A DNA stretch of 59,622 bases. It comes from Paraglaciecola sp. (GTDB lineage Bacteria; Pseudomonadota; Gammaproteobacteria; Enterobacterales; Alteromonadaceae). The notes beneath the pieces were generated by a model. That model saw only the letters and a list, made by a program, of their open reading frames with translations. It had not been told where the DNA came from and did no database searches. A program made the translations under genes and the position numbers. Positions within the stretch are counted from its first letter, which is position 1, and every line of letters starts with the position of its first letter. Location: assembly GCA_009993955.1 (NCBI GenBank), contig JAACSL010000025.1:1-59622 (forward strand), given 5' to 3'. This document shows, piece after piece, positions 7,308 through 48,503 of the stretch.

Positions 7308-7339
7308 TATGTGGTTCCAAGCTGATTACCAACAGGTAA

Positions 7340-7510: not shown

Positions 7511-7538
7511 TTTAACGTGCTTATTACTCGGTACATTC

Positions 7539-12395: not shown

Positions 12396-12405
12396 CAATA
12401 AGGCC

Positions 12406-12825
12406 TTACAACATTGCATCAATATACACCGTGCGACTCACTACAATATTGCCCACTGAACATTGGCCCATGCTGGTGAACTGGGCATAGGTGCGAGTGA
12501 GCGAACCATCAATGACACTTTTTTGTGCCACGTTAGCTTGATAGGTGCAATTTTCTAAACCTCGCACATTAGTAAAGGTAAATTGTGGCAGGTTAGTACA
12601 GGGCGAACTGGCAAAGGTGGTAGCCAACTGACATTCAATGCCAGCTCGCGCCGCATTTAACGCACGTTGCCCCAGAACTTCATGAACCACAGCGTCAGTA
12701 CCAGAAGCAAGCAAACGGCTGATGGTTAAACCGAGATAGGCTAATACCACGATAACAAACAAGGCCATCACCAACATACTGCCTTGTTGTTGCAAAGGGA
12801 TGATGATGTTTTGCTTAGGGCGCAT
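12406..12825 (-). CDS. mshP: MSHA biogenesis protein MshP
   Basis: Small pilin-like membrane protein of about 139 residues: a short basic N-terminus, then one hydrophobic helix (SMLVMALFVIVVLAYLGLTI) and a periplasmic part with several cysteines. It resembles the PilX-type minor component. It lacks a textbook G/F-T-L-I-E prepilin site. The frame opens at a TTG at 12843, but the ATG at 12825 is the more natural start; it overlaps the end of mshO. The next gene, mshQ, starts within or just after its end, so the genes are translationally linked. Confidence 0.85.
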   Translation of the reverse strand: MRPKQNIIIPLQQQGSMLVMALFVIVVLAYLGLTISRLLASGTDAVVHEVLGQRALNAARAGIECQLATTFASSPCTNLPQFTFTNVRGLENCTYQANVAQKSVIDGSLTRTYAQFTSMGQCSVGNIVVSRTVYIDAML

Positions 12826-21770: not shown

Positions 21771-21774
21771 GCCA

Positions 21775-23427: not shown

Positions 23428-23752
23428 GATTGACGTCTTTCTTAGTGTTGTTGTTATTGACATAAAGTACTTGCTTACCCTCTGGTCCAGCTAATTCGAC
23501 CTGATTCGCTAAAATAGTCACGACCTTTTTACCTTGTACCTGCTCGCCAGCGCTATAACTTTTACCATTGATAATGGCCAGTCTACGTTCGTCTGTGATA
23601 AAAATGGCGTTGAGCTTTAAGCTCTGCTCACCTTGAGTGTCTTTAGTGCTCGCTACGCTTGACGCTGGGCGTGTCGGGTCGTTCAGCACTTGCCCGACGG
23701 CCACTTGTTGGTAAATCACAAAAACTAAACCATAGCGCCAAATATTCTGCAT
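23417..23752 (-). CDS. mshK: MSHA biogenesis protein MshK (PilP-like)
   Basis: Small periplasmic protein of 111 residues with an N-terminal hydrophobic signal or anchor. It has the DPTRP motif and the LNAIFITDERRLAIINGK region shared with PilP/GspC-type linkers, which connect the inner-membrane complex to the secretin. Its ATG abuts the mshJ stop (TAAATG), and its 3' end overlaps mshL. Identification rests on this motif and on locus order. Confidence 0.85.
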   Translation of the reverse strand: MQNIWRYGLVFVIYQQVAVGQVLNDPTRPASSVASTKDTQGEQSLKLNAIFITDERRLAIINGKSYSAGEQVQGKKVVTILANQVELAGPEGKQVLYVNNNNTKKDVNHGF

Positions 23753-33439: not shown

Positions 33440-34486
33440 TTACCGTTGTACTGGGGCAAGAGCCTGAGTTGAATCACGCAGAACAAGCTTGGGTAAGTAA
33501 TGTTGATGACTGATGATTTTGCTGGCAGTTTGTTGGCGCTGAGCAACAATATTGCGGATCAGAAAATTAGTGGCTTGGCGGGCAATATCTCGTGTTGGTT
33601 GGGCCGCAGTGGTAAGTTTAGGGATCGTTTGCCGAGAGAAGGGGCTGTCTTCAAAACCCGCTATAGACAACTGTTCTGGTACCTTAACCCCATTCAAGCG
33701 GGCGGCAAACAATGCCCCTGCCGCAATTTCATCGTTACAAGCAAAAATAGCGGTGGGTGGATTGGACAACGCCAACAACTGTTGCGCACCTTTGACCCCT
33801 GAATCAAATGAATACTGGCCGTCTATCAACCAAGTAGGATCCACCAGCAACTGATGACGTTGCATGGCGTTGATAAAACCTTGTTGTCGCTCAAACGTTG
33901 AACGGTGATCTTTTTCACCACTGATAAAGGCAATTTTTTTATGCTGTTGGGCAATCAAATGTTCGGTGATGGTCTCGGCCGCTTCACGGTCATGGATCAG
34001 CACACAAGGACTTGCGCTCTGACCAGGCTCTTCTGAACCCGAAACAATGCGGATAAATTGAATATCCAAGTCACTCAATTGCGCCATCATATGTGGATTT
34101 TCCGATAGCGGTGGACAGATGATCAAACCGGATAATTGCGAGCGTTTCACCATTCGTCGAATTTCGTCGATAATGCTTTCATCACTCCCTTCACAGGGGT
34201 GGATTAACAACTCGTAGCCTTTTTCACGACATTCATCAAGAATGCCATTTTGCATATCGATAACATAATAGGCGTTGGGATTGTTATAAATAAAACCCAA
34301 CGAAAATGTGCGTGAACCCGCCAAATTGCGCGCGGCATTGTTTGGGTGATAATTCAATTCGCGTATCGCTTGATTGACTTTTTCTAAGGTGTCTGGCTTG
34401 ACCGAGCCTTCGTTATTAATGACCCGTGAGACGGTTTTAAAAGATACCCCTGCTAAGTCAGCCACATCTTTTATGGTTATTTTCAT
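33440..34486 (-). CDS. nagR: LacI-family regulator of the GlcNAc locus (NagR-like)
   Basis: LacI/GalR-type repressor of about 348 residues. It has an N-terminal helix-turn-helix (ITIKDVADLAGVSFKTVSRVINNEG), the hinge helix NAARNLAG, and a periplasmic-binding-protein-like effector domain (about 60-340). LacI-type NagR replaces NagC in many Alteromonadales GlcNAc loci, and the neighbours and operators support that role. The ATG at 34486 has GGA at proper distance; 34498 is also possible. It is divergent from the TonB receptor, and the operators in between suggest it represses that gene and perhaps itself until a GlcNAc-derived inducer binds. Confidence 0.88.
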   Translation of the reverse strand: MKITIKDVADLAGVSFKTVSRVINNEGSVKPDTLEKVNQAIRELNYHPNNAARNLAGSRTFSLGFIYNNPNAYYVIDMQNGILDECREKGYELLIHPCEGSDESIIDEIRRMVKRSQLSGLIICPPLSENPHMMAQLSDLDIQFIRIVSGSEEPGQSASPCVLIHDREAAETITEHLIAQQHKKIAFISGEKDHRSTFERQQGFINAMQRHQLLVDPTWLIDGQYSFDSGVKGAQQLLALSNPPTAIFACNDEIAAGALFAARLNGVKVPEQLSIAGFEDSPFSRQTIPKLTTAAQPTRDIARQATNFLIRNIVAQRQQTASKIISHQHYLPKLVLRDSTQALAPVQR

Positions 34487-34637
34487 GCTGTTTTCCATAC
34501 TACAAACTCATGCAAGGCAGAGCGCTTAATAACGCAATTCTACTGAGATAATCGTAAAAGCATAGTATTAGTCCCATGTTAATTTTTTGTATTTATTGTT
34601 TGCCATACGAAAAATCCTGATGTAAATTGCTTACAAA

Positions 34638-34651
34638 TGACAGCGCTGTCA
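34638..34651. promoter_or_regulatory. NagR-like operator 1
   Basis: TGACAGCGCTGTCA is a perfect palindrome (16 bp with flanking A and T) with the central CG usual for LacI-family sites. It lies between the divergent regulator and TonB receptor genes and recurs with one change at two more places in this locus. Confidence 0.85.
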
Positions 34652-34702: not shown

Positions 34703-34716
34703 TGACAACGCTGTCA
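34703..34716. promoter_or_regulatory. NagR-like operator 2
   Basis: TGACAACGCTGTCA, one base off the perfect palindrome, lies 102 bases before the TonB receptor start. It is identical to the copy at 44015-44028 ahead of the nagK operon. Confidence 0.85.
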
Positions 34717-34818: not shown

Positions 34819-37416
34819 ATGATGACACAGATTAAAATGAACAAACTTACTCGCAGCGTGAAAACTGCGTTGTTAGTTGGCACAGCAGTCGGCAATGGCA
34901 TGGTTATGTCGACTTCCGCTTTGGCGCAAGATTCGGCTACTCAAAGTGTTGAGGTAATCCAAGTATCTGGTATCCGCGCCAGCGTCAAAGAAAATTTAAA
35001 TAACAAACGTTTTTCAGACAGCATTGTTGATGCAATTAACGCTGAAGACATTGGCAAGTTTCCTGATAAAAATGTCGCTGAGTCTCTGCAACGCATTTCA
35101 GGGGTTACCATTCAACGCCAATTTGGTGAGGGTGCGGGCGTATCCATTCGTGGTGCGGGCTTAGATTTAACCCTAACAACCCTGAATGGGCAGAATGTCG
35201 CTTCAACCGGTTGGTTTGTTTTAGAGCCTGCCAAACGCTCATTCAACTATGAATTACTGCCATCTGAATTAGTGGGCAAACTGGAAGTGTATAAGAGTTC
35301 ACAAGCCGATTTAGCTGAGGGCGGTATCGGCGGTACTGTGGTGGTGAATACCCGTAAACCCCTAGAAATGACGAGCAATACATTTTTTGGGTCGGCAGAA
35401 GCGCAATATCAAACCGATTCGGGGGAGACTGATCCGCAACTTTCCGGCATGTATAGCTGGAAAGATGAAGAAGAAAAATTTGGTGTATTAGTGTCTGCGG
35501 TGATGCAACAGCGTTCATTGCAACGTCAAGGTAACGAAGCATTTTGGGAATGGGGTGCAGGTCCTGTTGGTTTCACTCAAGAACGTGAACGTCAAGCCCT
35601 CACCGCTACCTTGCAGTATGCGCCAAACGAAAATCTCGATTTTGTCCTCAATGCCATGAATATGGAAATGAGCGCCGACAATACCAACTATGCGTTGTGG
35701 TTAACTCAAGCCGACACCACATGGGGCGGTGGCACCACCACTTCTTGGATTGGCGGTGATGGCAGTGGCGATAACGCAGGCGCTCAGGCCGCAGGCCCTC
35801 TCAATGTGGCGTTTTATCAAGCACGTCCGCGCGAAGCAACCATGAAATCTGATGTGCTTGATTTAACCATGAACTACAGCACCTCTGATTACACCATTAA
35901 AGTACAAGTAGGCGATAGTTCTTCCACCGGTGGCACTGATTTTGAAATGGTGGTAGACGATGGCACAGGTGGTACGCCCATCGTCAACGGCACCTACGAT
36001 TTTACCCAAGGTCATCAAACCTGGAACACCCCACAGTTAGATCTTGCTACTTACGACCCCGGCTCTTTAGCCATGGGTACTGGCGCAGCGTTTAACAAAA
36101 CCCCGAAAACCGATGATGAAAGTTACCTGCAAGCGGATATCGAATTTAATGTGGATTATGGTCCCATCACCAGCATCAAAGGCGGCGCTAAGTATTCAGA
36201 TCACAATACCACCAGCCGTCAGATATTTTTTGATCAAGCGGCGGGTTTTAATAACGTTATCTCAACCTCCGGTTTAAGTGAAGGCACCTATGACGTGGGC
36301 GCGGGCGACTATCAAATCATTCGCTTTGACGCCGATGCACTAAAAGACTGGGCAAAAGCCAGTATTATCGGTGAAACAGAAGACCTAGGTACCTACAGTG
36401 AAATTCAAGAAGACAATTTTGCCGCTTATGTAATGGCTAAATTTTCCACTGAAAATATTCGCGGTAATGTCGGTGTGCGTTATGTCACCACCGACGCCAC
36501 CTCGGTTTATTACCTTGATAATACCAAGACAGAGTCCAGTGCTGACTATGCCGAGTTTTTACCGAGCTTCAACTTAGCCATGAACTTGGCCGACGATCTG
36601 ATTCTACGTATCTCGGCGGCGCGGGCCATGTCACGTCCACAATATGTCGACATGTACGTGAACCCAAGTCCAATTGGTGTGAACGATGACACCCCAAACA
36701 ATCAGTTTTGGGTAGTGGGTAATGTGGGTTTAAAACCCTTTGTATCGGACCAGTTTGATATGGGCCTGGAGTGGTATTTTGACGAAAGTTCATTGCTCAG
36801 TGCCACCTGGTTTAAGAAAGATGTGAAGAACTTTGTCACCATCTCACAATACTCTGCGACAAATGCTGAGATCCCCTTCCAAGGCACTCTGCGTCCCGAC
36901 GAACAGGGTTGGACAGTTCAGGAAAAAAGCAATGGTAAGGCGGCTGAGATCCAGGGTGTAGAACTGCAATATCAACAAGACTATGGCAATGGCTTTGGTT
37001 CGTTAATTAACTACACCTACACCGATGCTCAAGCCGATGGCGAAACCTTCACTGATCGCAATTCAGTACTCAGTGACAGCTCGCGCCACTCGTACAACCT
37101 TACTGGTTTTTATGAAGTTGAGGCCTTTCAAATCAGGGTGTCCTATAACTGGCGAAGTGAGTACATGCTGCGTGAATCTGGTTCGTACGGCAATCGCATC
37201 CACGGTGATTTTGGTAGCTTAGATTTAAGTGCGGTTTACCATGTCAGTGAAAATGTGGATGTAAAATTGGATGTGAATAACCTCACTGAAGCATCATCGG
37301 AGCAAAAGGGTAATAACAACTTCCAAACCAACTACAGCGGTTTTGCCAAAGGTTTCCCATTGTATGAATATGAAATGGCACGCCGAATTACTGCTGGAGT
37401 CAGTGTGAAGTTCTAA
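34819..37416 (+). CDS. TonB-dependent receptor, probable GlcNAc/chito-oligosaccharide uptake
   Basis: Outer-membrane active transporter of 865 residues of the Caulobacter/Xanthomonas type. A signal peptide (cleavage near ALAQ) is followed by a TonB-box-like VEVIQVSG. The plug has the family signature NAEDIGKFPDKNVAESLQRI with GVSIRG. A 22-strand barrel follows, ending in the aromatic-terminal ITAGVSVKF. Substrate is inferred from the GlcNAc genes downstream and from the shared operators. It starts MM, with AGGA just upstream. It is followed by a strong terminator, so expression of the downstream SapC and halogenase genes needs read-through or another promoter. Confidence 0.92.
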   Translation: MMTQIKMNKLTRSVKTALLVGTAVGNGMVMSTSALAQDSATQSVEVIQVSGIRASVKENLNNKRFSDSIVDAINAEDIGKFPDKNVAESLQRISGVTIQRQFGEGAGVSIRGAGLDLTLTTLNGQNVASTGWFVLEPAKRSFNYELLPSELVGKLEVYKSSQADLAEGGIGGTVVVNTRKPLEMTSNTFFGSAEAQYQTDSGETDPQLSGMYSWKDEEEKFGVLVSAVMQQRSLQRQGNEAFWEWGAGPVGFTQERERQALTATLQYAPNENLDFVLNAMNMEMSADNTNYALWLTQADTTWGGGTTTSWIGGDGSGDNAGAQAAGPLNVAFYQARPREATMKSDVLDLTMNYSTSDYTIKVQVGDSSSTGGTDFEMVVDDGTGGTPIVNGTYDFTQGHQTWNTPQLDLATYDPGSLAMGTGAAFNKTPKTDDESYLQADIEFNVDYGPITSIKGGAKYSDHNTTSRQIFFDQAAGFNNVISTSGLSEGTYDVGAGDYQIIRFDADALKDWAKASIIGETEDLGTYSEIQEDNFAAYVMAKFSTENIRGNVGVRYVTTDATSVYYLDNTKTESSADYAEFLPSFNLAMNLADDLILRISAARAMSRPQYVDMYVNPSPIGVNDDTPNNQFWVVGNVGLKPFVSDQFDMGLEWYFDESSLLSATWFKKDVKNFVTISQYSATNAEIPFQGTLRPDEQGWTVQEKSNGKAAEIQGVELQYQQDYGNGFGSLINYTYTDAQADGETFTDRNSVLSDSSRHSYNLTGFYEVEAFQIRVSYNWRSEYMLRESGSYGNRIHGDFGSLDLSAVYHVSENVDVKLDVNNLTEASSEQKGNNNFQTNYSGFAKGFPLYEYEMARRITAGVSVKF

Positions 37417-37447: not shown

Positions 37448-37470
37448 AAAAGGGGGGTAACCCCCTTTTT
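37448..37470 (+). terminator. Rho-independent terminator after the TonB receptor
   Basis: AAAAGGGGG (37448-37456), loop GTAA, and CCCCCTTTT with a further T form a GC-rich hairpin with a T-run. It lies 31 bases past the stop codon and should reduce transcription into the sapC-like gene. Confidence 0.9.
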
Positions 37471-37522
37471 CGTCAGCCCAGCACCCTATGCTTGAGCCTA
37501 AACCAGAATAAGTGATGACGAT

Positions 37523-38227
37523 ATGAGTAAACAGATTGTGCCAGTGAACAGCAACCTTCACCAAACAGTAAGGGTGCTACGCGATCCAACATTTAATCAG
37601 GCCAAAGACGCGCAACTGGTTCCTGTTGTGGTACAAGAAGTCATGGATTGCGCCATTGAGTACCCCGTTGTCTTAGTAAAAAATGCTCATTCTGGTCAGT
37701 TTGTATTGGTCGCGATGATGGGTCTGAAAAGCGGTGAGAACCTTTACTGCGGTGAAGTAAAATTCGATGGTCATTATGTACCGCAAGTATTGCGGCACTA
37801 TCCCTTTGTTTTGCAAGCAACACCCAACAGCGAACATATGTTACTGAGCATTGATGAACACTCACCCCTTGTGAATCAGCAGGAAGGAGAGCATTTATTT
37901 GATAGTGCTGGCGAGCAAAGTCCCTTTTTGGTGAATAAAGCCAAAGCCTTGCAACTGCATCATGAACAGCAGCAAATTACCGAAAGTTTTGTGGCGTTGT
38001 TGTTGCAATACCAATTGCTTAGCCAGCAACAATTGACTATTCAACTTGGTGCTGGTCAACCCACCATCCTAGACGGTGTTTATTTAGTTGATCAAAAACG
38101 CCTCGACGAACTCAGCGAAGCCGAGTACTTGGCGCTCAGAAAAAATGGGGCCTTAGCGATTATTCATGCGCACTTGTTATCACTTAAACAGTTAAATCGC
38201 CTTGCCCGTCGGGCATTAACGCTGTAA
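37523..38227 (+). CDS. SapC-family protein
   Basis: Soluble protein of 234 residues of the SapC family, named after an S-layer-linked gene but of unknown biochemical role. The N-terminal half has YPVVLVKNAHSGQFVLVAMMGL, and LRHYPFVL is typical of the family. No signal peptide is seen. SapC genes often sit beside TonB receptors and tryptophan-halogenase-family genes, as here. It ends 18 bases before the first halogenase start, so the two are probably co-transcribed. Confidence 0.85.
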   Translation: MSKQIVPVNSNLHQTVRVLRDPTFNQAKDAQLVPVVVQEVMDCAIEYPVVLVKNAHSGQFVLVAMMGLKSGENLYCGEVKFDGHYVPQVLRHYPFVLQATPNSEHMLLSIDEHSPLVNQQEGEHLFDSAGEQSPFLVNKAKALQLHHEQQQITESFVALLLQYQLLSQQQLTIQLGAGQPTILDGVYLVDQKRLDELSEAEYLALRKNGALAIIHAHLLSLKQLNRLARRALTL

Positions 38228-38245
38228 GTGAAGTTGGAAAAGTCC

Positions 38246-39805
38246 ATGTCTGCACACAAAACAATTCAGCATATTGTGATCCTAGGTGGAGGCACGGCTG
38301 GCTGGCTAAGCGCTAACCATCTTGCCAAAAAGTTACTGGTCAATGCTCCGCACGGGATGCGCATCACTTTAGTTGAGTCTCCCGACATCCCTACCGTGGG
38401 TGTGGGTGAGGGCACGGTACCAGCCATCCGTGACACGCTGCAGTATTTAGGCATTACTGAAACCGAGCTGATTCAGCAGTGTGATGCGACGTTTAAGCAA
38501 AGTATTCACTTTATCGACTGGCAACCCGCTCTGGCAAACGGCAAACGCCACAGCTATCACCACGTTTTTGACTACCCACTGCCGGGTTATCACGACTATT
38601 TACCTGACTGGCTTGTCAAAACAGAATCACGTGAGAATTTCGCCGATGTCTTCTCCATCCAATCTCGGCTATGTGCTGCTGGATTGGCACCCAAAGCGGT
38701 CACACAACCTGAATATCAAGGATTATGCAATTACGCCTATCATTTTGATGCCGCTAAGTTTGGCAAACTACTGGCCAGGCATGCGGTTGAAAAATTAGGG
38801 GTGATACACCGACAACTGCGCATTGTTGATGTATGCATGGATGAACATGGTCATATCGCGCATTTAGTCAGCGACACGGGCGAACAACTTGGTGCAGACC
38901 TGTTTATAGATTGCAGTGGCACACCATCAATATTGCTTGGCAAAGCGTTAAATGTGCCCTTTATCAGCAAACACGATATGTTATTCACCGATACGGCCAT
39001 CGCGACACAAGTGCCGTATGCCGATATTAGTGCAGCCATCCCCTGTTCGACATTAGCCACCGCACAGTCAGCCGGTTGGATATGGGACATTGGTTTAAGC
39101 CATCGACGTGGCGTGGGTTTGGTGTACTCTTCAGCCCATTGTTCTGATGATGAGGCAGAGCAGCAACTTTACCGATATTTGGGGTCGCAGGCGCCTCAGG
39201 CTGCACTGCGTAAAATCGCCATGCGCACGGGTTATCATCAATCGTTTTGGCAGGGTAACTGCGTGGCTGTCGGTTTAGCACAAGGATTTGTCGAACCGCT
39301 GGAGGCCACAGGTTTGTTATTGTTTGATATTGCCGCGCGTATGTTGGCAGAGCAATTTCCTGCCAACCATGCCGCGATGCAAACCACGGCCAAACGCTAC
39401 AATCGCAAAATGCGCCAAGCTTGGGATAGAGTGTTTGATTTCATCAAACTGCATTATTGTTTATCCCAGCGCCAAGATAGTGATTTTTGGCAACAACATC
39501 GGCGCCGAGACAGCCAATCAGAGACCTTGAGTGAAGTATTAGATCACTGGCGTTGGCATCTGCCTAGTCAATATGATTTCACCGATCGCGCGGCTATTTT
39601 CAATTTAGAAAACTATTTATACGTGTTGTACGGTATGCAATTTCACACTGATTTATCGGCGCAAGCGTGGCGATTTGATCCACAAAAAAGCGCTGAGGTG
39701 TCATGGCAGCACATGGCACACAGGGCCGCACAAGCCAAACAACAATTGCTGCCACATCGGCAACTGCTGGAACGTATTCAGCGTTTTGGCATTCAGCCCA
39801 TCTAA
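38246..39805 (+). CDS. Tryptophan-halogenase-family flavoprotein 1
   Basis: FAD-dependent halogenase-like protein of about 519 residues. It has the FAD motif GGGTAGW (14-20), the lysine aligned with catalytic K79 of RebH at K84 (CDATFKQSIHFIDW), and the EPLEATG region with the equivalent of E346 at E353. The WxWxIP motif reads WIWDIG (278-283), so its proline is missing. In characterised enzymes FADH2 from a separate reductase makes hypohalous acid; no reductase is seen here. The ATG at 38246 has GGA 8 bases upstream; a GTG at 38228 is in frame. Substrate and activity are unknown. Confidence 0.87.
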   Translation: MSAHKTIQHIVILGGGTAGWLSANHLAKKLLVNAPHGMRITLVESPDIPTVGVGEGTVPAIRDTLQYLGITETELIQQCDATFKQSIHFIDWQPALANGKRHSYHHVFDYPLPGYHDYLPDWLVKTESRENFADVFSIQSRLCAAGLAPKAVTQPEYQGLCNYAYHFDAAKFGKLLARHAVEKLGVIHRQLRIVDVCMDEHGHIAHLVSDTGEQLGADLFIDCSGTPSILLGKALNVPFISKHDMLFTDTAIATQVPYADISAAIPCSTLATAQSAGWIWDIGLSHRRGVGLVYSSAHCSDDEAEQQLYRYLGSQAPQAALRKIAMRTGYHQSFWQGNCVAVGLAQGFVEPLEATGLLLFDIAARMLAEQFPANHAAMQTTAKRYNRKMRQAWDRVFDFIKLHYCLSQRQDSDFWQQHRRRDSQSETLSEVLDHWRWHLPSQYDFTDRAAIFNLENYLYVLYGMQFHTDLSAQAWRFDPQKSAEVSWQHMAHRAAQAKQQLLPHRQLLERIQRFGIQPI

Positions 39806-39820
39806 ACCACTGAGGCAACC

Positions 39821-41380
39821 ATGCAAGCAACAAAAACAAGGTCTGTTTTAATCGTTGGGGGTGGTAGCGCAGGCTGGATTACGGCTTTGTATCTCAACCG
39901 ATATTTTAATCAGCATGGTAAACACCTCAATATCCGCTTGCTCGAATCCAAACAGATTGGTCCTATTGGGGTAGGTGAAGCGACAGTGCACAGCATTCGT
40001 TTCTTATTTGCAGCCCTTGGTTTAGACGAAGCTGAGTTAATGCGAGAAACCAACGCCACCCTAAAAACCGGCATTTTATTTAGAGATTGGATGAATCCGC
40101 AAAATCAACAACAACATGAATATTTTCATCCTTTTGAACAACAACGGACCAATAGTGACATTGACATTTCCAGTGCGTGGCTAAGTGGCGACAAACATAT
40201 GCCCTACGATCATAGTGTATGTTTGAGCCGCAAATTGATTGCCAAACAACACTCGCCAAAATCTCACGTCAGCAAAGCTTATCAAGGTGTTGTGCCCTAT
40301 GGTTATCATTTAGATGCCACATTGCTTGGGCAATTTTTACAGCGCAAAGGCTTAGAAGCAGGCATAGAGCATAGCTACGACACGGTACAATCGGTGCATT
40401 GTCGAAACGGTGAAATTGCCGCGCTTATGACCAGCAATGGGGAACAAACAGCAGATTTTTACATCGATTGTAGTGGTTTTGCCGGGAAACTTATCGAGGC
40501 CTTGGCCGCTGATAATTGGCTAGATTTTAGCGACAGCCTGCCTTGCAATAAGGCTGTGGCAATCCAACGGGAGTATCATCCTGGCGAGATCCCTAAACCC
40601 TACACCACAGCCACTGCGCTGAGCGCGGGCTGGGCGTGGCAAATAGACTTGGTAAACCGCCAAGGTAGTGGCTATGTTTATGCTGGCAAATACCTTAGTC
40701 AAGACCAAGCCGAACAGGAACTGCGGACATTACTTGGCCCAGATGCCAAGACCAAACCAGCATTACATTTGGATATGAAAGTTGGTTGTCGTAAAGCATT
40801 TTGGCTCGGCAATTGTCTGGCTATTGGTCTGTCGGCTGGCTTCATTGAACCGCTTGAATCCACTGGTTTACACCTCATCAATCTTGGAGTGAGGCTTTTT
40901 GCCACGCATTTTTCCGCAAGCCACCTTAATCAAAGTGTGCGCGACAGTTACAATCGTCAACTTGCAGGCATTTATAACGACCTCAAACAGTTTATCGTTT
41001 TGCACTACTGCTTGAGCGATAGAAACGACAGTGCGTTCTGGAAAGCCGCACGTCAATCTGCCGCCCATTGCCCGGGTCTGCAAGAAAAACTGACTGCATG
41101 GCAGTACAAAGTCTGCGAATTTATGGATTTAGCGGGGGGCTTTACCACCACATTTAACGATGAGAATTACCGCTACGTTTTATACGGTATGCAGCATTAT
41201 CCAGCGTTACATGCCCCCTTAGACCCCACCACTAGAGAAAACATGTTTGCTGCGGTGCAACAACTTGGTGACAACCTATTGTTGCAAACCACTTCACACC
41301 GCGAATTTTTAGAGCGTTTACACCATCGCCCCCTATTTAACATGACTGCAGCGCATTCAGTTCAGCCATCTTCATTATGA
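39821..41380 (+). CDS. Tryptophan-halogenase-family flavoprotein 2
   Basis: Second halogenase-family protein, 519 residues, paralogous but distinct from the first. The FAD motif is GGGSAGW (13-19). The catalytic lysine equivalent is K82 in TNATLKTGILFRDW. E346-S347-T348-G349 match RebH numbering exactly. The WxWxIP motif reads WAWQID (271-276), again without proline. It starts 15 bases after the first gene ends and is followed 13 bases later by the hexosaminidase, so the four genes from sapC on form one unit. Whether it halogenates, hydroxylates or only binds flavin is open. Confidence 0.87.
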   Translation: MQATKTRSVLIVGGGSAGWITALYLNRYFNQHGKHLNIRLLESKQIGPIGVGEATVHSIRFLFAALGLDEAELMRETNATLKTGILFRDWMNPQNQQQHEYFHPFEQQRTNSDIDISSAWLSGDKHMPYDHSVCLSRKLIAKQHSPKSHVSKAYQGVVPYGYHLDATLLGQFLQRKGLEAGIEHSYDTVQSVHCRNGEIAALMTSNGEQTADFYIDCSGFAGKLIEALAADNWLDFSDSLPCNKAVAIQREYHPGEIPKPYTTATALSAGWAWQIDLVNRQGSGYVYAGKYLSQDQAEQELRTLLGPDAKTKPALHLDMKVGCRKAFWLGNCLAIGLSAGFIEPLESTGLHLINLGVRLFATHFSASHLNQSVRDSYNRQLAGIYNDLKQFIVLHYCLSDRNDSAFWKAARQSAAHCPGLQEKLTAWQYKVCEFMDLAGGFTTTFNDENYRYVLYGMQHYPALHAPLDPTTRENMFAAVQQLGDNLLLQTTSHREFLERLHHRPLFNMTAAHSVQPSSL

Positions 41381-41393
41381 GAAATCTAAGCAC

Positions 41394-43973
41394 ATGAACA
41401 CGCTAAGCCACGCCTTTCTGATCGTCACTTTGCTGGTACTTGCAGCCTGTGATTCGCCAAAATATTCAGCCGCAAGTGTGCAAGCCCAGCAACAACTTGA
41501 TGACGCTGCGCGTGACATGCAAGTTAGTCTGACGGTGGTCAGCAATATTGCTGTTGAAGACTGTCCGGCCAAGACGCAGCCATGTTATTTGGCGGAAATG
41601 CGCCTTGGCTTACCAGCCAACATGCCAGCCAATTGGCGTATCTATTTTAGTAGCCTCACGCCCATTGCTTGGGACGGCAGCGATGACTTTGATATCCGCC
41701 ATATCAATGGTGACTTACACGAAATTGTCCCTTTAACCTCCCTGACAGCCAAGGCAGCTGGCTATCTCATTCCGTTTAAGGGCGCAGCGGGCTTGGTGTC
41801 ACAATCCGTGCTTTTTCCCAATTACATTTTGGCTGCTGAAGGATTAACAGCGCGAGTCATTCATGCCACTCAAGAAGCGTTACATGCCGGTGAGCAAGTG
41901 CCGCGCTCACTGCATGTGCAAGATTTTCTAAACCCTGAACAGCGCTTGCGTTCGGTGGATGACCAAGTGCCTTTTGCTGACGCAGCATGGCGTTATGCAC
42001 GCAATGAAAGCTTGTTTGTTAAACAGGTGGACATTGATAAAAATCGGATCGTGCCGCACGTTAAAGACAGCACGTTTAAGTCTGAGTATTTAGATTTGCG
42101 TCAAGGCTTAGATCTCAGTCAAATCGATGAAGTTTATCCCGTTGCCAGCCAACGGTTAATGCAGCTTGGCATCATCAACAATCAAGCTGGCGTGCCACTG
42201 AGCGTGGTTCTCAATAGTAAACTTAGTCATGAAATGGCAGACGAGTCCTATCAGATTCTGCTCGCTGAGCAGGGCATTCAAATTCAAGCGGCGTCTTCCG
42301 CTGGCGTATTTTACGCGTTAATGACAGTTGGCCAAATGTATGATCCACTGCAACAACACCTGCCTCTGGGCGCGGTGAACGATGCTCCACGCTACCATTT
42401 TCGGGGTCTGCATGTAGATTTAGCACGTAATTTTCATAGCCAAGACTTTTTATTCCGCTTAGTAGACCAAATGGCCTATTACAAACTCAACAAACTGCAT
42501 TTACATTTGGCTGATGATGAAGGCTGGCGCTTAGCCATTCCCGGTTTGCCGGAACTGACAGATCTTGCCAGTAAACGTTGTTTAGACTGGCAGGAAAATC
42601 TCTGTTTGCAGCCGCAACTGGCTGCAGGCGTGGATAGCGATGGACCCAATAATGGCTATTTAAGTGATACAGACTACATCGCCTTGCTGAAATATGCCGA
42701 TGCGCGCCACATTGAAATTATCCCTGCCTTAGATATGCCTGGACATTCACGTGCCGCTGTCATTGCCATGCAAAAACGTTATCTCAGTTTGATGAAACAA
42801 GAACAGCGCGCTGCTGCCGAACAATACTGGTTGTCCGAGCCTGCGGATACCAGCGTGTATTCGTCTATTCAACATTATCGCGATAATACCCTCAATCCTT
42901 GTTTGGACAGCACCTACCGCTTTGTCAGCAAAGTCTTACAAGAAGTACAAACCATGCATCGCACGGCGGGTGTGCCACTTCGTCGCTATCATATTGGTGC
43001 TGATGAAACCGCAGGGGCATGGCGCGGTTCACCAGCATGTCAATCGTTACTCAGTCAGCACCCAGAAATTGGAGGAACCGCTAAACTCAGTGCTTATTTT
43101 ATTGAAAAAGTCGCCAACATGGTGGCTGAGATGGGGGTTATACCCGCAGCGTGGAGTGACGGTTTAGCCCATGCAAGTTTGGACAATTTACCTGCCAAAG
43201 TGCAGTCCAATGTTTGGGACACACTTTACAGCAATGGCTTTGATCGCAGTAACAGTATGGTAAATGCTGGATGGGGTGTGGTTTTATCCTTACCCGACGT
43301 TCTTTATTTTGACTTTCCTTACGAGGCGGATCCTATTGAACCCGGTTATTACTGGGGTTCGCGAGCAACCGACAGTTTTCAGGTTTTTCAATTCATGCCA
43401 GATAATTTGCCTGCTCATGCGGAGTTATGGCCAGACAAAATGGGTAAACCATATCGCTCAACGGAGCAAATCAGCCTCAATCCAGACAGACGAGTGTTAG
43501 GAATTCAAGCACAGCTATGGAGTGAAACTGTGCGCTCCGATCAACAAGCCGCGTACATGTTATTCCCACGCCTAGTAGCTTTTGCTGAACGCGCTTGGCA
43601 TCGCCCCGCGTGGGCTGAGCCTTACAAAGTAGGTCAATCTTACGATGCAAACACCGGGCACATTGACACTATGCAGTTACAACATCTGCGGGCTGATTGG
43701 CAGAGTTTTGCACAAGTCATGAGTGGCAAGATTCTCAAGCAACTGGTGCTTGATGGGATGGAGCCAAGAGTTCCCATGCCTGGCGCCAGAATTGATGCTG
43801 GGAGACTCAGCATGAACACACACTTTGCTGGCTTGGTATTGGAATATCAACAACAAGGTGGTGAGTGGCAAACATATCAACAGCCCGTGGCTATTGAATC
43901 AGCAAGTTTGGTGCGAGCCAGAATTGCCGGCACACAAGTTGCCAGCCGAGTGCAACGTATCAGCCCCCAATGA
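41394..43973 (+). CDS. Beta-N-acetylhexosaminidase, GH20, lipoprotein
   Basis: Exo-acting hexosaminidase of 859 residues that would release GlcNAc from chito-oligosaccharides. It has a lipobox LAAC with the acylated Cys at 19 and Asp at the next position, which in enteric bacteria favours retention in the inner membrane. A carbohydrate-binding-like N-terminal domain (about 40-190), a GH20b domain (about 215-330) and the catalytic barrel (about 335-720) follow. The catalytic Asp-Glu pair is D537-E538 in YHIGADETAG. It is the last gene before the second operator and would act in the periplasm between the receptor and NagP. Confidence 0.94.
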   Translation: MNTLSHAFLIVTLLVLAACDSPKYSAASVQAQQQLDDAARDMQVSLTVVSNIAVEDCPAKTQPCYLAEMRLGLPANMPANWRIYFSSLTPIAWDGSDDFDIRHINGDLHEIVPLTSLTAKAAGYLIPFKGAAGLVSQSVLFPNYILAAEGLTARVIHATQEALHAGEQVPRSLHVQDFLNPEQRLRSVDDQVPFADAAWRYARNESLFVKQVDIDKNRIVPHVKDSTFKSEYLDLRQGLDLSQIDEVYPVASQRLMQLGIINNQAGVPLSVVLNSKLSHEMADESYQILLAEQGIQIQAASSAGVFYALMTVGQMYDPLQQHLPLGAVNDAPRYHFRGLHVDLARNFHSQDFLFRLVDQMAYYKLNKLHLHLADDEGWRLAIPGLPELTDLASKRCLDWQENLCLQPQLAAGVDSDGPNNGYLSDTDYIALLKYADARHIEIIPALDMPGHSRAAVIAMQKRYLSLMKQEQRAAAEQYWLSEPADTSVYSSIQHYRDNTLNPCLDSTYRFVSKVLQEVQTMHRTAGVPLRRYHIGADETAGAWRGSPACQSLLSQHPEIGGTAKLSAYFIEKVANMVAEMGVIPAAWSDGLAHASLDNLPAKVQSNVWDTLYSNGFDRSNSMVNAGWGVVLSLPDVLYFDFPYEADPIEPGYYWGSRATDSFQVFQFMPDNLPAHAELWPDKMGKPYRSTEQISLNPDRRVLGIQAQLWSETVRSDQQAAYMLFPRLVAFAERAWHRPAWAEPYKVGQSYDANTGHIDTMQLQHLRADWQSFAQVMSGKILKQLVLDGMEPRVPMPGARIDAGRLSMNTHFAGLVLEYQQQGGEWQTYQQPVAIESASLVRARIAGTQVASRVQRISPQ

Positions 43974-44014: not shown

Positions 44015-44028
44015 TGACAACGCTGTCA
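44015..44028. promoter_or_regulatory. NagR-like operator 3, ahead of nagK operon
   Basis: TGACAACGCTGTCA, extended to 18 bases of near-symmetry at 44013-44030. It lies 20 bases upstream of a perfect TATAAT, so bound repressor would overlap or abut the -35 region. It is identical to operator 2 at 34703. Confidence 0.87.
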
Positions 44029-44102: not shown

Positions 44103-44996
44103 TTGCTAGATCAGCAGTATTTTTTAGGCATCGATGGTGGTGGCAGTAAATGCAAAGCCAGATTAGAGGATGCACATGGTAATTTATTGGCGGAAACTGT
44201 TGCCGGACCAGCCAATCCCGTGCGGGATTATGCGCTGGCGATTGCATCCATCAATGAAGCGTGTCAGAGCGTATATAAACTCGCAAGATTACCACTGGAG
44301 GCCATGGCGAATACTTTTCTAGGCATGGGTTTAGCGGGCATTAACCTGCCACACTGTCGACAAGCCATGTTAGCTTGGTCACACCCTTTTGCAGGGTTGA
44401 ATTTGAGTACTGATCTGCACATTGCGTGTTTAGGTGCCCATGGCAGCCAAAATGGCGCTATCGTCATTGTTGGCACCGGCAGTTCTGCCATGGTTACCCA
44501 AGACAACACATCCTTTGAATACGGTGGCCATGGATTTCTGTTGGGTGACAAAGGCAGTGGCGCTTGGTTTGGTGCCCAAGCGGTGCGGTGGGTCTTAGAA
44601 AGCTTTGACGGTTTAGCGCCAACCAGCCACTTTACCCAAGCGCTGTGCCAGTTTGCACATTGTTATTCCGCCACAGCACTGGCCGAAAAATACCTGAGTG
44701 CTAGCCCTGCTCAATTTGCTCAGTTTGCCCCGTTAATCTTTGATTTTGCCGAACAGCAAGATGAGGTTGCATTGGCATTGGTGCGTGAAGGCGCCAACTA
44801 CCTTAGCGCCTTATCTCGACAGTTATTACACCATCAACCAAGTCGTTTAGCGTTTATCGGCGGCCTTGCCGAGAGAGTGAAACCATGGCTAGACGCGGAT
44901 ATACAACAACAAGTTAGCTGTGCATTGCAGCCCCCCGAGTGTGGTGCCGTGTTATTAGCCAAACTACCTATTAAATCACTGGAGAGTGCATCATGA
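44103..44996 (+). CDS. nagK: N-acetylglucosamine kinase (BadF/BadG ATPase family)
   Basis: Cytoplasmic kinase of 297 residues that would phosphorylate GlcNAc to GlcNAc-6-phosphate. It has the actin-like phosphate-1 motif FLGIDGGGSKCKARL near the start, the phosphate-2 region AIVIVGTGSSAM, and LLGDKGSGAWFG. It starts with TTG, placed by AGGA 7 bases upstream; the only nearby ATG hits a stop. This non-ROK kinase is typical of GlcNAc loci in which the sugar enters through NagP rather than a PTS. It overlaps nagB-II by 4 bases. Confidence 0.88.
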   Translation: MLDQQYFLGIDGGGSKCKARLEDAHGNLLAETVAGPANPVRDYALAIASINEACQSVYKLARLPLEAMANTFLGMGLAGINLPHCRQAMLAWSHPFAGLNLSTDLHIACLGAHGSQNGAIVIVGTGSSAMVTQDNTSFEYGGHGFLLGDKGSGAWFGAQAVRWVLESFDGLAPTSHFTQALCQFAHCYSATALAEKYLSASPAQFAQFAPLIFDFAEQQDEVALALVREGANYLSALSRQLLHHQPSRLAFIGGLAERVKPWLDADIQQQVSCALQPPECGAVLLAKLPIKSLESAS

Positions 44997-45991
44997 ATGG
45001 CACCCTAATGGCGAGCGAAGCTGCATCGGCACCGCAACTAATTGCCCAACAATTACAAAAAAATCAGTCGGTTTGCGCCGATTTAGGTGCACAGATCCGC
45101 GCGTTCGACCCTACTCTGGTTTACATTATTGGCCGTGGCTCCTCTGATCATGCGGGTGTCTACGCTAAATACCTGATTGAAGTAGAACTGGGCATTCCTG
45201 TTTGTGCTGCCGCCCCCTCGGTGACCGGTTTATTTGGTCGCCAGCTCAATTTAAAACGCGCCTTAGTTTTGTGCATCTCGCAATCCGGGCGCAGCCCCGA
45301 TATTTTGACTCAAGCTGCAGCAGCACGTAAATCAGGGGCCTTATGTGTGGCCTTAGTGAATGATCAAAGTTCACCTTTGGCTGAACTGGCTGATGTAGTA
45401 GTGCCACTCTTAGTGGGTGAAGAAAAAGCGGTAGCCGCCACCAAAAGTTATCTTGCCACCTTGAGTGCTATTTTGCAGTTAGTGGCTTTTTGGGCCAACA
45501 ACCCCTCCCTACAGCAGGCTTTAACTGTGCTACCAAAGCAATTGCAACAAGCCGTCGATGCGCCGCCGCAACTCACCCAATCCTTTGTCGACCCTCTCAA
45601 ACACTGTGTGGTTTTAGGTCGCAGTTTTGGTTATGCCATTAGCCGTGAGATAGCGCTTAAATTAAAAGAAGTGTTGGGCATTCATGCTGAGTCTTTCAGT
45701 AGTGCTGAATTCTTGCATGGCCCAGTGACCTTAGTTGCCAATAAACTCGGTGTGATTGATATAGATCTTGAGGATGAATCAGCCATAGCTCACCGTGCAC
45801 AAATCGCAGAAATCGCGCAACGTGGTGGCATCATGGCGCAATTGCATACGGTTGGCACTGAACTGCATCCGCGCACCGCAGCACTAACGGTACTGCAACG
45901 CTTTTATTTGGACATCGAACAAATTGCTGTCAGCATGGGACGTGACCCAGACCGTCCCGTAGGACTCAACAAAGTAACTAAAACCGTTTAG
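44993..45991 (+). CDS. nagB: Glucosamine-6-phosphate deaminase, SIS type (NagB-II)
   Basis: Two-SIS-domain protein of 332 residues, similar to the isomerase half of GlmS, that would convert glucosamine-6-phosphate to fructose-6-phosphate and ammonia. The first SIS domain has YIIGRGSSDHAG and LCISQSGRSPD; EEKAVAATKSYLA lies between, and the second has VVLGRSFGYAISREIALKLKE. It lacks the glutaminase domain of GlmS, and the fold is unrelated to classical NagB. The ATG overlaps the nagK stop (ATGA). The locus strongly supports a deaminase role over other SIS functions. Confidence 0.9.
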   Translation: MNGTLMASEAASAPQLIAQQLQKNQSVCADLGAQIRAFDPTLVYIIGRGSSDHAGVYAKYLIEVELGIPVCAAAPSVTGLFGRQLNLKRALVLCISQSGRSPDILTQAAAARKSGALCVALVNDQSSPLAELADVVVPLLVGEEKAVAATKSYLATLSAILQLVAFWANNPSLQQALTVLPKQLQQAVDAPPQLTQSFVDPLKHCVVLGRSFGYAISREIALKLKEVLGIHAESFSSAEFLHGPVTLVANKLGVIDIDLEDESAIAHRAQIAEIAQRGGIMAQLHTVGTELHPRTAALTVLQRFYLDIEQIAVSMGRDPDRPVGLNKVTKTV

Positions 45992-45999
45992 GAAAGGCG

Positions 46000-47148
46000 A
46001 TGAGGCATTATCACGCAAAACAACTATTTGACGGCGAACACTTTTTACACGATGTGCGTTTATCGGTGAGCGATGGCCTGATTATCGGCATCAGCAAGCA
46101 ACCGCAAAAGACCGACGAGGTCTTGGACGGACTCGTCAGCGCTGGTTATGTCGATACCCAAGTCAATGGTGGAGGGGGTTTGCTGTTTAATCAGCAACCA
46201 CAGCTTAGCACCTTGCGCACTATGCTTGCTGCCCACAGCCAATTTGGTACAACGGCCATGTTGCCTACCCTGATTACCGATAGTTTAGAGGTGATGCAAC
46301 GCGCTGCCGATGCGGTGGCAGAGGCCGTGCAACTCGATGAACCGGGTATTGTCGGCGTGCACTTTGAAGGCCCGCATTTAAGTATTGCCAAACGGGGGAT
46401 CCATGCAGACACCGAGATACGCTCACTGAGTGATGCAGAACTAGCGCTCTTCTGTCGCCAAGATCTCGGTAAAGTCATGATAACGGTAGCGCCAGAAAAC
46501 GTTAGCCCAGATCTTATTCGTGACTTAGTTAAACAAGGCGTGGTGGTGGCGTTAGGGCATTCAGCAGCCACGGTAGAAACCGTATTACTTGCGATTGAAG
46601 CAGGTGCTAGCGGTTTTACTCACTTGTTCAATGCCATGTCGGGTTTAAGCGCGCGTGATCCCGGCATGATTGCGGCTGCATTAAATGATTCACGCGTTTA
46701 TTGTGGGCTGATTGCCGACCTTATCCACGTGCATCCCTATAACGGGCGACTTGCCTATCGCTGCAAAAATTGGCAGCGCTTGATGTTAGTTACCGATGCG
46801 ATGGCACACGTCGGCTGTGACTTGGACGTACTACCATGGTTAGACACACAAATTACCCGTCACGGCAATAAACTCACCTTGGATAATGGCACGATTGCCG
46901 GCTCAGCGTTGGATATGGCGAGCGCGGTGCGTAATGCCCACCAGCATATGCACATTGAGCTTGGACATGCACTAAACATGGCAAGTCTGAGTCCTGCTGC
47001 CTTTGCGGGGCTAGAGCAGCTCGGCCAACTCAAAGTGGGTAAACAAGCAGATTTTATTTTACTTGATCGCCAACTCAGTGTTGTTTCAAGCTGGATCAAG
47101 GGCGAACAACAAATGACGCAGACAGCAGCGGCACAAAGTAAGGGATAA
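46000..47148 (+). CDS. nagA: N-acetylglucosamine-6-phosphate deacetylase
   Basis: Amidohydrolase of 382 residues that removes acetate from GlcNAc-6-phosphate. Seen are the early GYVDTQVNGGGG, the metal-site HFEGPHLS, the histidine segments LGHSAA and FTHLFNAMS, and the catalytic aspartate in LVTDAMAHVG. A GGAAAGG ribosome site precedes the ATG, 8 bases after nagB-II. The next gene, nagP, starts 2 bases after its stop. Confidence 0.95.
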   Translation: MRHYHAKQLFDGEHFLHDVRLSVSDGLIIGISKQPQKTDEVLDGLVSAGYVDTQVNGGGGLLFNQQPQLSTLRTMLAAHSQFGTTAMLPTLITDSLEVMQRAADAVAEAVQLDEPGIVGVHFEGPHLSIAKRGIHADTEIRSLSDAELALFCRQDLGKVMITVAPENVSPDLIRDLVKQGVVVALGHSAATVETVLLAIEAGASGFTHLFNAMSGLSARDPGMIAAALNDSRVYCGLIADLIHVHPYNGRLAYRCKNWQRLMLVTDAMAHVGCDLDVLPWLDTQITRHGNKLTLDNGTIAGSALDMASAVRNAHQHMHIELGHALNMASLSPAAFAGLEQLGQLKVGKQADFILLDRQLSVVSSWIKGEQQMTQTAAAQSKG

Positions 47149-47150
47149 AC

Positions 47151-48503
47151 ATGAATCAACCAGAGAAAGCAACAATCATGACCGACCCAAAAACTCCGAC
47201 AAATTTAGTCCCCATCATGCTTATTGGTAGCTTGTTTTTTATTTTTGGATTCATCACTTGGCTGAACGGTGCGTTAATCCCGTTTTTGCAAATAGTCTGT
47301 GACTTATCACAAACTCAAGCCCTGTTTATAGCCAGCGCCTTTTATTTGGCTTACACGCTGATGGCCTTACCCATGGCATGGGTGCTGGAAAAAGTTGGCT
47401 ATAAAAATGCTATTTCATTGGGGCTAGTGCTGGTTGCCGTGGGCTTTTTATTGTTTATTCCTGCGGCGGAAACGCAAGTATTTGTATTGTTTTTGTTTGC
47501 GCAGTTTGTAGTTGGTACCAGCCTGACCTTGCTGCAAACGGCAGCCAATCCTTATATTGTTAAATGCGGTCCACAAAAAACGGCGGCTGTACGTATCTTT
47601 GTGATGGGTTTGCTGAACAAAGGAGCCGGTGTCTTAGCACCGCTATTTTTTGCTGCCTGGGTAGTTGGCGATTTTAAAGATGTCACCGTGGACTCTATTA
47701 ATGCCTTGCCAGAAGCAGAACGATTGATACAAATTGACGCCTTAGCAAATGGCTTGATCATGCCTTATTTGGCTGGCGCAATTGTGTGGTTAATCGCTGC
47801 CGCTTTAATTAAAAAGTCCAGCCTACCTGAGTTGGATTTGGACAATGAAATATCCGCAGAAACTGGCACCCAGTTAAGCCAAAATAAAACCTCGATCATG
47901 CAGTTCCCACATTTGATTTTAGGCGCACTTACGATCTTTGTTTATGTGGGTGTCGAAGTGATCGCCGGTGACACAATTGGTTTGTTTGGTGCCAGTTTGG
48001 GTGTTGCCAATGCGACCACACTTACCTCGTATACCATGGGTTTCATGCTACTGGGCTATGCGCTCGGCTTAGTGTTAATTCCACGCATCATGCAACAACA
48101 AACGGCTTTATTAGGTTCAGCCGCCTTAGGGGTGATTTTGTCTATTTTGATCATCATCTCAGACCCAGAATCAAGCAGTGTTTCTGAGGTATTGTGGGGC
48201 TGGTCAGGTATACAAATATTACCAAACATCATTACTTTTGTTGCTATGTTTGGTTTTGCCAATGCGGTTGTCTGGCCTGCGGTATGGCCACTGGCGCTGG
48301 AGGGATTGGGTAAATTTACCGCGCGGGGCTCTGCGTTATTGATCATGGGCATAGCCGGCGGTGCCACCCTACCCTTGTTGTATGGCGTATTAGCCGAACA
48401 AACTGGTGGGCAAAGCGCCTATTGGATGATGATCCCTTGTTATCTGTTTATTTTTTATTACGCCCTCAAAGGTCATAGCCTGCGCAGTTGGACCAGATCA
48501 TAA
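47151..48503 (+). CDS. nagP: N-acetylglucosamine transporter NagP (FucP-type MFS)
   Basis: Inner-membrane sugar:proton symporter of 450 residues with about 12 membrane helices, of the FucP/GluP branch of the major facilitator family. Seen are SLFFIFGFITWLNGALIPFL in helix 1 and the branch marker LLQTAANPYIVKCGP. In Shewanella-type loci this protein imports GlcNAc, which the kinase NagK then phosphorylates; this fits the genes here. It is the last gene of the nagK-B-A-P operon. Confidence 0.92.
   Translation: MNQPEKATIMTDPKTPTNLVPIMLIGSLFFIFGFITWLNGALIPFLQIVCDLSQTQALFIASAFYLAYTLMALPMAWVLEKVGYKNAISLGLVLVAVGFLLFIPAAETQVFVLFLFAQFVVGTSLTLLQTAANPYIVKCGPQKTAAVRIFVMGLLNKGAGVLAPLFFAAWVVGDFKDVTVDSINALPEAERLIQIDALANGLIMPYLAGAIVWLIAAALIKKSSLPELDLDNEISAETGTQLSQNKTSIMQFPHLILGALTIFVYVGVEVIAGDTIGLFGASLGVANATTLTSYTMGFMLLGYALGLVLIPRIMQQQTALLGSAALGVILSILIIISDPESSSVSEVLWGWSGIQILPNIITFVAMFGFANAVVWPAVWPLALEGLGKFTARGSALLIMGIAGGATLPLLYGVLAEQTGGQSAYWMMIPCYLFIFYYALKGHSLRSWTRS

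Follow-up and report, generated by a model that had tools for sequence, protein, structure and literature searches.

SapC and two tandem halogenase-family proteins beside a TonB-dependent receptor in an N-acetylglucosamine locus of Paraglaciecola sp.

Why should a locus for the breakdown of N-acetylglucosamine (GlcNAc) carry genes of the tryptophan-halogenase family? The question is raised by a 59,622-nucleotide stretch of DNA from Paraglaciecola sp. (hereafter the window), in which a gene for SapC and two tandem genes for halogenase-family flavoproteins, here named HalA and HalB, occupy positions 37523-41380, flanked by the genes for a TIGR01782-type TonB-dependent receptor and a GH20 hexosaminidase in a NagR-type GlcNAc locus. 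A preliminary description, made from the sequence alone, had given these coordinates, at which we find exactly the corresponding open reading frames (ORFs), and had set the two halogenase-family genes between a TonB receptor and a GH20 enzyme in a GlcNAc locus, as the Pfam and TIGR01782 profiles bear out. Among the roles that it considered, which also included action on a SapC partner or an aromatic compound, our analyses favor the modification of a receptor, or of something bound up with it, because the halogenase varies with the receptor and does not track the GlcNAc genes.

Linkage to and co-divergence with the receptor

The window receptor is a member of the TIGR01782 family (608.6 bits, cut-off 310). 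In the source genome, six of the seven receptors over this cut-off adjoin a halogenase of their own, and the seventh, at C64:9178, shows none. The same genome holds 11 near-full-length matches to the halogenase family PF04820 (one of them degenerate), one weak partial match, and five SapC genes. Its halogenase-bearing receptors adjoin genes for GH20 (in the window), GH94 (contig C13), a pullulanase (C47) and GH3 (C9 and C64), and halogenases beside a GH97 gene (C28, at the contig end) and an alpha-amylase-family gene (C49) have no receptor in view. Locus L041 (4780-14164) presents in a row a TonB receptor that the receptor profile does not pick up, a sulfotransferase-like gene (21 bits, cut-off 22), two halogenases and a prolyl oligopeptidase, and looks like a halogenase-receptor link in a peptide locus. 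Since halogenases stand beside the receptors of GH94, pullulanase and GH3 loci, and beside one with a peptidase, the sugar is not the common factor.

This linkage extends well beyond the source genome. Among 59 genomes sampled from the order (thresholds E<=1e-60 for PF04820 and E<=1e-90 for TIGR01782, at most 13 receptor candidates scored per genome), a halogenase occurs in 15 genomes, a TIGR01782 receptor in 15 and SapC in 13, and halogenase and receptor occur together in 14 (Fisher 1.7e-11, the related genomes not being independent); genome G053 has halogenases and no TIGR01782 receptor. Specifically, such a receptor is found no more than 5 kb away from 34 of the 49 halogenases, versus 0.94 expected by random placing, and on the same strand as 33 of these 34. 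SapC genes lie near a receptor in 15 of 24 cases and near a halogenase in 16, and a halogenase is found within 5 kb of 27 of the 78 receptors. Across the class, a sample of 75 genomes that includes the source has the receptor family in three, all with a halogenase, and a halogenase in four; Caulobacter vibrioides likewise has both. Among the best 80 of 579 relatives in named genomes, which come mainly from Alteromonadales but also from Cellvibrionales, sphingomonads, Pseudoxanthomonas, Paucibacter and others, at least 73 have a receptor in the locus and at least 65 have SapC, these counts being minima in that the ORF picker missed even the halogenase in four loci. Most loci were collected through their halogenases, and a check that started from the receptor (295 genomes, at most three candidates scored per genome) found a halogenase within 5 kb of 31 of 38 receptors. 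Of the other seven, two are cut by contig ends and five show no halogenase, the contig extending only ~2.5 kb further in one of these five cases. All nine receptors with at least 63% identity carry HalA and SapC.

That the bond concerns the receptor itself is indicated by comparing the divergence of each protein across GlcNAc (nag) loci. In 13 such loci, receptor distances correlate with HalA-type distances at r 0.80, versus 0.16-0.35 with those of NagA, NagK, NagR and GH20, and the partial correlation of receptor and halogenase controlling for these four is 0.79 (12 loci, p 0.0005). When named loci were added and two duplicates dropped, the resulting 28 loci gave r 0.878 and a partial correlation of 0.872 on NagA, NagK and GH20 (p 2e-4). 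The receptor-halogenase correlation is 0.826 without the outlier L051, and 0.73 with SapC also controlled. A four-way clustering gives the receptor type and the halogenase type as the same in 26 of 27 loci, while the types of GH20, NagK and NagA cross those of the receptor. Thus, receptor and halogenase co-diverge independently of the catabolic genes. Over 104 receptor-halogenase pairs of all kinds the correlation is 0.54 and the nearest neighbor is the same in 47%, and for the 70 pairs outside nag loci the values are 0.62 and 41%; the source-genome pair of locus L024 is discordant among the 104.

HalB is specific to one receptor type. When only loci with both a receptor match and a halogenase match are counted, a HalB of at least 50% identity is present in 20 of the 24 loci with a receptor of 55% or higher identity to that of the window and in none of the 87 others (19 of 23 versus 0 of 85 once duplicates, three locus pairs with an identical receptor, are removed). 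Remoter HalB-like proteins occur elsewhere at 46% (L138) and 42% (G165). Taken alone, the tie of the enzymes to the TonB receptor is very probable.

Such co-divergence might also be produced by enzymes that act on the cargo of the receptor, namely an aromatic compound or aglycone that is imported with a GlcNAc oligomer and is modified or detoxified in the cytoplasm. This arrangement would explain why the halogenase varies with receptor specificity, and the related enzymes BrvH and Xcc4156 halogenate free indoles, according to the parts consulted of PMC5945002 and PMC7336383. Yet a common aromatic cargo is hard to reconcile with PF04820 enzymes attached to receptors of loci as different as those listed above, and there are nag receptors with no halogenase in the locus; we regard this alternative as rather unlikely.

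A second alternative holds that receptor, SapC and halogenase are inherited together as a cassette and that the halogenase, under sugar control, produces a signal or deterrent of the haloindole type. The variation of receptor-halogenase cassettes between nag loci within one genus is in its favor: Colwellia has three different receptor-halogenase pairs (in L102 and L104; in L117, L123 and L132; and in L154) on like catabolic genes. So are the NagR-type operators of the locus, and the portion consulted of PMC11337851 suggests a role in competition for tryptophan halogenases expressed by Colwellia. However, GH20 adjoins the cassette in many loci and still shows no co-divergence with the receptor (partial correlation 0.17 in the 28 loci), HalB is specific to one receptor type, and six receptors of the source genome each have their own halogenase. 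We consider linked inheritance without a functional bond unlikely.

The receptor as a candidate substrate

Our preferred explanation, to which we assign a probability of roughly 0.4, is that HalA, HalB and SapC are accessory proteins of the adjoining TonB receptor. HalA and HalB would be cytoplasmic flavin adenine dinucleotide (FAD) enzymes with a halogenase fold, present in smaller amount than the receptor, and would oxidize (brominate or chlorinate, or hydroxylate) at least one aromatic side chain of the receptor preprotein before its export, with SapC serving as an adaptor. Stated less specifically, the best explanation is that receptor-matched flavoenzymes modify the receptor before export, or something that the receptor carries. 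We infer that the receptor is the substrate from the matching of enzyme to receptor, from the precedent of QhpG (see below) and from the presence nearby of other likely protein modifiers: genes for Cupin_8, DUF6445 and sulfotransferase proteins also lie beside TIGR01782-type receptors. Known protein modifiers include some sulfotransferases and cupin-type oxygenases, and the three families are likely to act on proteins here as well. More tentatively, and with some doubt, the idea may be extended to a general system of receptor tailoring in Proteobacteria, in which matched flavin halogenases with SapC and, depending on the locus, FIH-type cupins, DUF6445 proteins or sulfotransferases would covalently modify nutrient receptors of the TIGR01782 kind before export to yield halogenated or hydroxylated aromatics.

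HalA and HalB are both members of PF04820 (HalA 428.9 bits, E 3.1e-128; HalB 410.7 bits, E 1e-122; cut-off 21). The preliminary description had both keeping the FAD motif, the catalytic lysine and the glutamate, and both do: GxGxxG appears as GGGTAGW and GGGSAGW, and the catalytic residues are K90 and E359 in HalA, numbered from its GTG start, and K82 and E346 in HalB. The K84 and E353 first reported for HalA are the same residues counted from an in-frame ATG six codons downstream. The halide loop Thr-Gly is present in both (EATG in HalA, ESTG in HalB), and the motif Fx.Px.Sx.G, as in PMC7336383, is matched by FIEPLESTG of HalB, with Ala for Ser in FVEPLEATG of HalA. The AlphaFold2 model of HalB (pLDDT 90.3) has a predicted halogenase fold, with AbeH as its best Foldseek match (TM 0.88/0.91). 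N-termini judged by eye suggest that HalA, HalB and SapC are cytoplasmic.

Both proteins lack the proline of the WxWxIP motif, as had been noted, reading WIWDIG in HalA and WAWQID in HalB. Because WxWxIP is not matched, we file the pair as members of the PF04820 sequence family and not as proven halogenases. This loss is shared by 34 of 69 halogenases from loci of the order (one of the 34 being a degenerate paralogue). SapC lies within 5 kb of 31 of these 34, versus five of the 35 with the proline, and those five also stand beside a Cupin_8 protein (Fisher 4.3e-11 for proline loss against SapC linkage, an optimistic value given related rows). In a tree of the 69 proteins the proline label needs three changes, with the proline-bearing pair of L041 and one degenerate row breaking what would be a single clade, and HalA and HalB fall on two separate sub-branches. 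Judged by motif and similarity, the solved structures 2pyx and 9lu2 also belong here. As far as sequence comparison tells, the pair is no one-off but part of a widespread SapC-linked and receptor-linked subfamily that usually lacks this proline.

Could the proline-less enzymes instead be flavin monooxygenases that hydroxylate a peptidyl aromatic residue in the manner of QhpG, and not halogenases at all? WxWxIP has been suggested to stop halogenases from acting as monooxygenases (PMC5945002, as far as consulted), the proline is lost in the SapC-linked clade, and there is a weak similarity to QhpG (9.4e-12). On the other side, the catalytic lysine and glutamate and the Thr-Gly halide loop are retained, which makes this quite improbable. 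For the chemistry of HalA and HalB, these residues favor halogenation, and the lost proline leaves hydroxylation possible. We consider it very improbable that the two proteins are catalytically silent scaffolds or chaperones of halogenase descent: degenerate paralogues do exist, but HalA and HalB retain every catalytic residue examined. The degenerate PF04820 paralogues, at L024:12226-13728 (G000:C9) and L045:10531-12063, stand beside intact ones and resemble pseudoenzyme pairs; that of L024 has GRGLPLA in place of the FAD motif and Arg at the position of the catalytic Lys.

The preliminary description had seen neither a flavin reductase nor a tryptophan pathway nearby. The first statement stands for PF01613 reductases, of which the whole source genome has no match at E<=0.001 (13 of 14 control genomes have one), Fre-type reductases not having been searched for. 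The second holds for the 20 Pfam-scanned ORFs of the window, none of which belongs to such a pathway; the window has 41 ORFs of at least 180 amino acids.

SapC is a member of PF07277 (218.1 bits, E 1.4e-64, cut-off 28.9), with no signal peptide at its N-terminus as judged by eye. Its AlphaFold2 model is predicted with high confidence (pLDDT 96.8), and Foldseek finds no match for it in the PDB (best E 1.1). As a strict partner of the receptor SapC was rejected: it followed the catabolic genes in the 13 loci, where the best-scoring SapC was used, and was intermediate in the 28 loci, where the SapC nearest to the halogenase was used. A SapC gene at L032:8357-9136 (G000:C59) has neither a halogenase nor a TIGR01782 receptor in its 18.6 kb stretch.

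Not every GlcNAc receptor comes with a halogenase. Four nag loci (L078, L079, L083 and L088) have GH20, NagK, NagB, NagA and NagP and, within the stretch read, neither a halogenase nor SapC; a fifth halogenase-free locus, L086, bears Cupin_8 instead. The receptors of these five form one clade (95*), apart from a clade of 15 nag-type receptors with halogenases; those of L051 and L052, nag loci with a halogenase, lie outside both. Since the five genomes concerned (G015, G040, G044, G014 and G052) have halogenases elsewhere, these loci show only that GlcNAc breakdown needs none in the locus.

Several observations weigh against the preferred explanation. One target residue common to all receptors was sought among 66 of them (44 with a halogenase or SapC nearby and 22 without) and rejected: at the cut used, linked and unlinked receptors are not told apart by any Trp, Tyr or His, and the residues that do pass, Phe672 (34 of 44 linked, 8 of 22 unlinked), Phe770 (30 and 3), Phe7 (36 and 9) and Ser89, are not separable from descent. 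Among nag receptors, Tyr526 is found in 13 of 15 with a halogenase (His in L033, Phe in L043) and in none of five without, Tyr555 in 15 versus one, and Trp245 in 15 versus two. Because both groups are clades, a single ancestral change is enough to explain these differences, and a pairs test had too few contrasts; the three residues are candidate positions by sequence and not evidence of modification. Nor does any column split the loci with HalB from three without it. In addition, 50 of the 78 TIGR01782 receptors of the order sample have neither a halogenase nor SapC within 5 kb, genome G039 lacks any halogenase despite having two such receptors, and the receptor family passes the cut-off in the control Bacteroides ihuae, which gives no halogenase match. 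SapC adds nothing to the receptor link (correlation 0.08 with the halogenase controlled), and the QhpG and LodB models match HalA and HalB far under their cut-offs. The co-transfer of neighbors could yield co-divergence without a functional bond, truly independent swaps being few. Finally, the hairpin between the receptor and SapC genes, described below, might be a full terminator.

An exploratory sliding-window comparison found that receptor residues ~147-296 and 703-802 track the halogenase beyond the receptor as a whole (peaks 0.41 and 0.40), with weaker stretches at 67-146, 538-617 and 783-832 (95% null maximum 0.24). Tyr526 is outside all of these stretches.

Arrangement and regulation of the locus

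The features of the locus are collected in Table 1. The gaps between successive genes, from the receptor through SapC, HalA and HalB to GH20, are 106, 0, 15 and 13 bp, in which we saw no room for a precursor of a ribosomally synthesized and post-translationally modified peptide, a candidate that was rejected for these gaps (distant precursors not being covered).

Table 1. Features of the GlcNAc locus in the window
Feature	Position	Strand	Basis or remark
NagR-type LacI regulator, divergent	33440..34498	-	PF00356/PF13377
NagR-type operator TGACAGCGCTGTCA	34638..34651	.	one of three exact TGACANCGNTGTCA palindromes in the genome
NagR-type operator TGACAACGCTGTCA	34703..34716	.	exact palindrome search
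TonB-dependent receptor, TIGR01782 type	34819..37416	+	profile, tree, mirror-tree; co-diverging partner of HalA/HalB
Terminator-like hairpin, receptor/SapC gap	37448..37472	+	9 bp stem, then T run
SapC	37523..38227	+	PF07277
HalA, PF04820 flavoenzyme, WIWDIG motif	38228..39805	+	GTG start; alternative ATG at 38246
HalB, PF04820 flavoenzyme, WAWQID motif	39821..41380	+	profile, motifs, AlphaFold2 model
GH20 hexosaminidase	41394..43973	+	starts 13 bp downstream of HalB; lacks an exact operator of its own
Third NagR-type operator	44015..44028	.	before nagK
nagK, nagB-II, nagA, nagP (GlcNAc catabolism, uptake)	44103..48503	+	profile matches

All three exact palindromes of the source genome belong to this locus, where two precede the receptor gene and the third precedes nagK; together with the nag genes they mark it, by sequence, as a NagR-regulated GlcNAc locus. 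The NCBIfam cut-offs are passed for the NagB-II and nagA models, and the matches to the NagK and NagP models are below theirs. Where other nag loci show a NagR homologue, its identity is 52-65%, and an operator precedes the receptor gene in 35 of the 40 halogenase-bearing nag loci and in all five without a halogenase (two of the counted loci are duplicates). Since the GH20 gene follows HalB so closely and has no exact operator of its own, the stretch from receptor to GH20 is most likely one regulated unit. The operators 5' of the receptor gene lend support to co-expression with the GlcNAc locus, which the preliminary description had implied, with the terminator-like hairpin between receptor and SapC as a caveat.

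This hairpin is no peculiarity of the window. When gaps of 30 bp or more are considered, a hairpin followed by a T run is present between receptor and SapC in 20 of 23 cases and between receptor and halogenase in 52 of 77, versus a fraction of 0.003-0.004 in shuffled sequences. Between modifier genes it is found in one of 29 gaps of that length (99 pairs overall, mostly with shorter gaps), and it occurs in three of six modifier-to-GH20 gaps and one of four receptor-to-GH20 gaps. Such a hairpin would probably lower the level of the enzymes relative to the receptor.

Some neighboring genes deserve mention. A second TonB receptor gene directly after nagP (48604-50754) has no adjoining modifier genes and is absent from the TIGR01782 match list of the genome. 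In nag loci L033, L035, L036, L037 and L039, an opposite-strand sulfotransferase gene lies between halogenase and GH20, with weak TPR matches (assigned by Pfam in L037 only, and by profile in the other four). Far upstream in the window, at 5433-12422, a PEGA and FGE-sulfatase-type protein is encoded beside a DUF6701/laminin-G protein of 1627 amino acids, and genes for a type II/IV secretion ATPase and a secretin (17888-23463) lie near these two.

Comparison with known systems

For many PF04820 proteins annotated as tryptophan halogenases we know of no substrate. A large branch of this family that is tied receptor by receptor to one receptor family offers a concrete candidate, and if our explanation is correct, receptors would be a missing natural substrate class for many PF04820 enzymes, perhaps including those of the BrvH type and of Xanthomonas. 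Should receptors be halogenated or hydroxylated, this would be a protein modification new to nutrient uptake and would provide halogenases that act on peptides or proteins. Among the PDB matches of HalA and HalB is VirX1 (6qgm), a PF04820 relative that we take to be phage-derived; should TonB receptors prove to be targets of halogenases, phage-borne copies might have phage receptors as their substrates. PMC11337851, in the portion consulted, speculates on halogenase and virus-host receptors.

Among the matches listed in the openly licensed literature, titles and the starts of abstracts give no link of these halogenases or SapC to TonB receptors. The text consulted of PMC2996990 and PMC1790865 contains neither 'halogenase' nor 'SapC', that of PMC7618045 has nothing on a link of halogenase or SapC to receptors, and the 'SapC' of PMC4911050 proved, in the passage seen, to be a clay and not the protein. 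PMC3853003, likewise seen in part, reports a halogenase for bromo-indole acetic acid.

The closest solved relatives of HalA are 9lu2 from Pseudoalteromonas sp. L11-2 ('tryptophan halogenase putative'; 2.8e-152) and 2pyx from Shewanella frigidimarina (7.5e-135), which share its proline-less motif (WIWDIA and WIWDIG) and are compared here as structures only. The best PDB match of HalB by both sequence and fold is AbeH (8fov), annotated like PyrH (2wet) as a tryptophan 5-halogenase, at about 34% identity; unlike HalB, AbeH keeps WxWxIP (as WIWTIP).

BrvH (6frl) and Xcc4156 (6y1w) are PF04820 enzymes with open active sites that are inactive on free tryptophan, and BrvH has a second halogenase gene adjoining it, comparable to the tandem of HalA and HalB. 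In contrast to our pair, which lacks the proline and has Thr-Gly, BrvH keeps WxWxIP and has Thr-Ser in the halide loop (Thr-Asn in Xcc4156). The main texts of the two papers on these enzymes (PMC5945002 and PMC7336383), in the parts consulted, mention neither 'TonB' nor 'SapC'; they describe BrvH and three Xanthomonas enzymes as having no known native substrate and propose peptide substrates for BrvH and Xcc4156.

A precedent for the proposed reaction is QhpG, a halogenase-like flavoprotein that dihydroxylates peptidyl tryptophan (PMC7876137, as far as consulted). Although HalA (44.5 bits) and HalB (34.3 bits) fall below the cut-off of 240 of the QhpG model NF049967 and are not members of that family, QhpG modifies a tryptophan within a protein, as HalA and HalB may do with an aromatic residue of their receptor.

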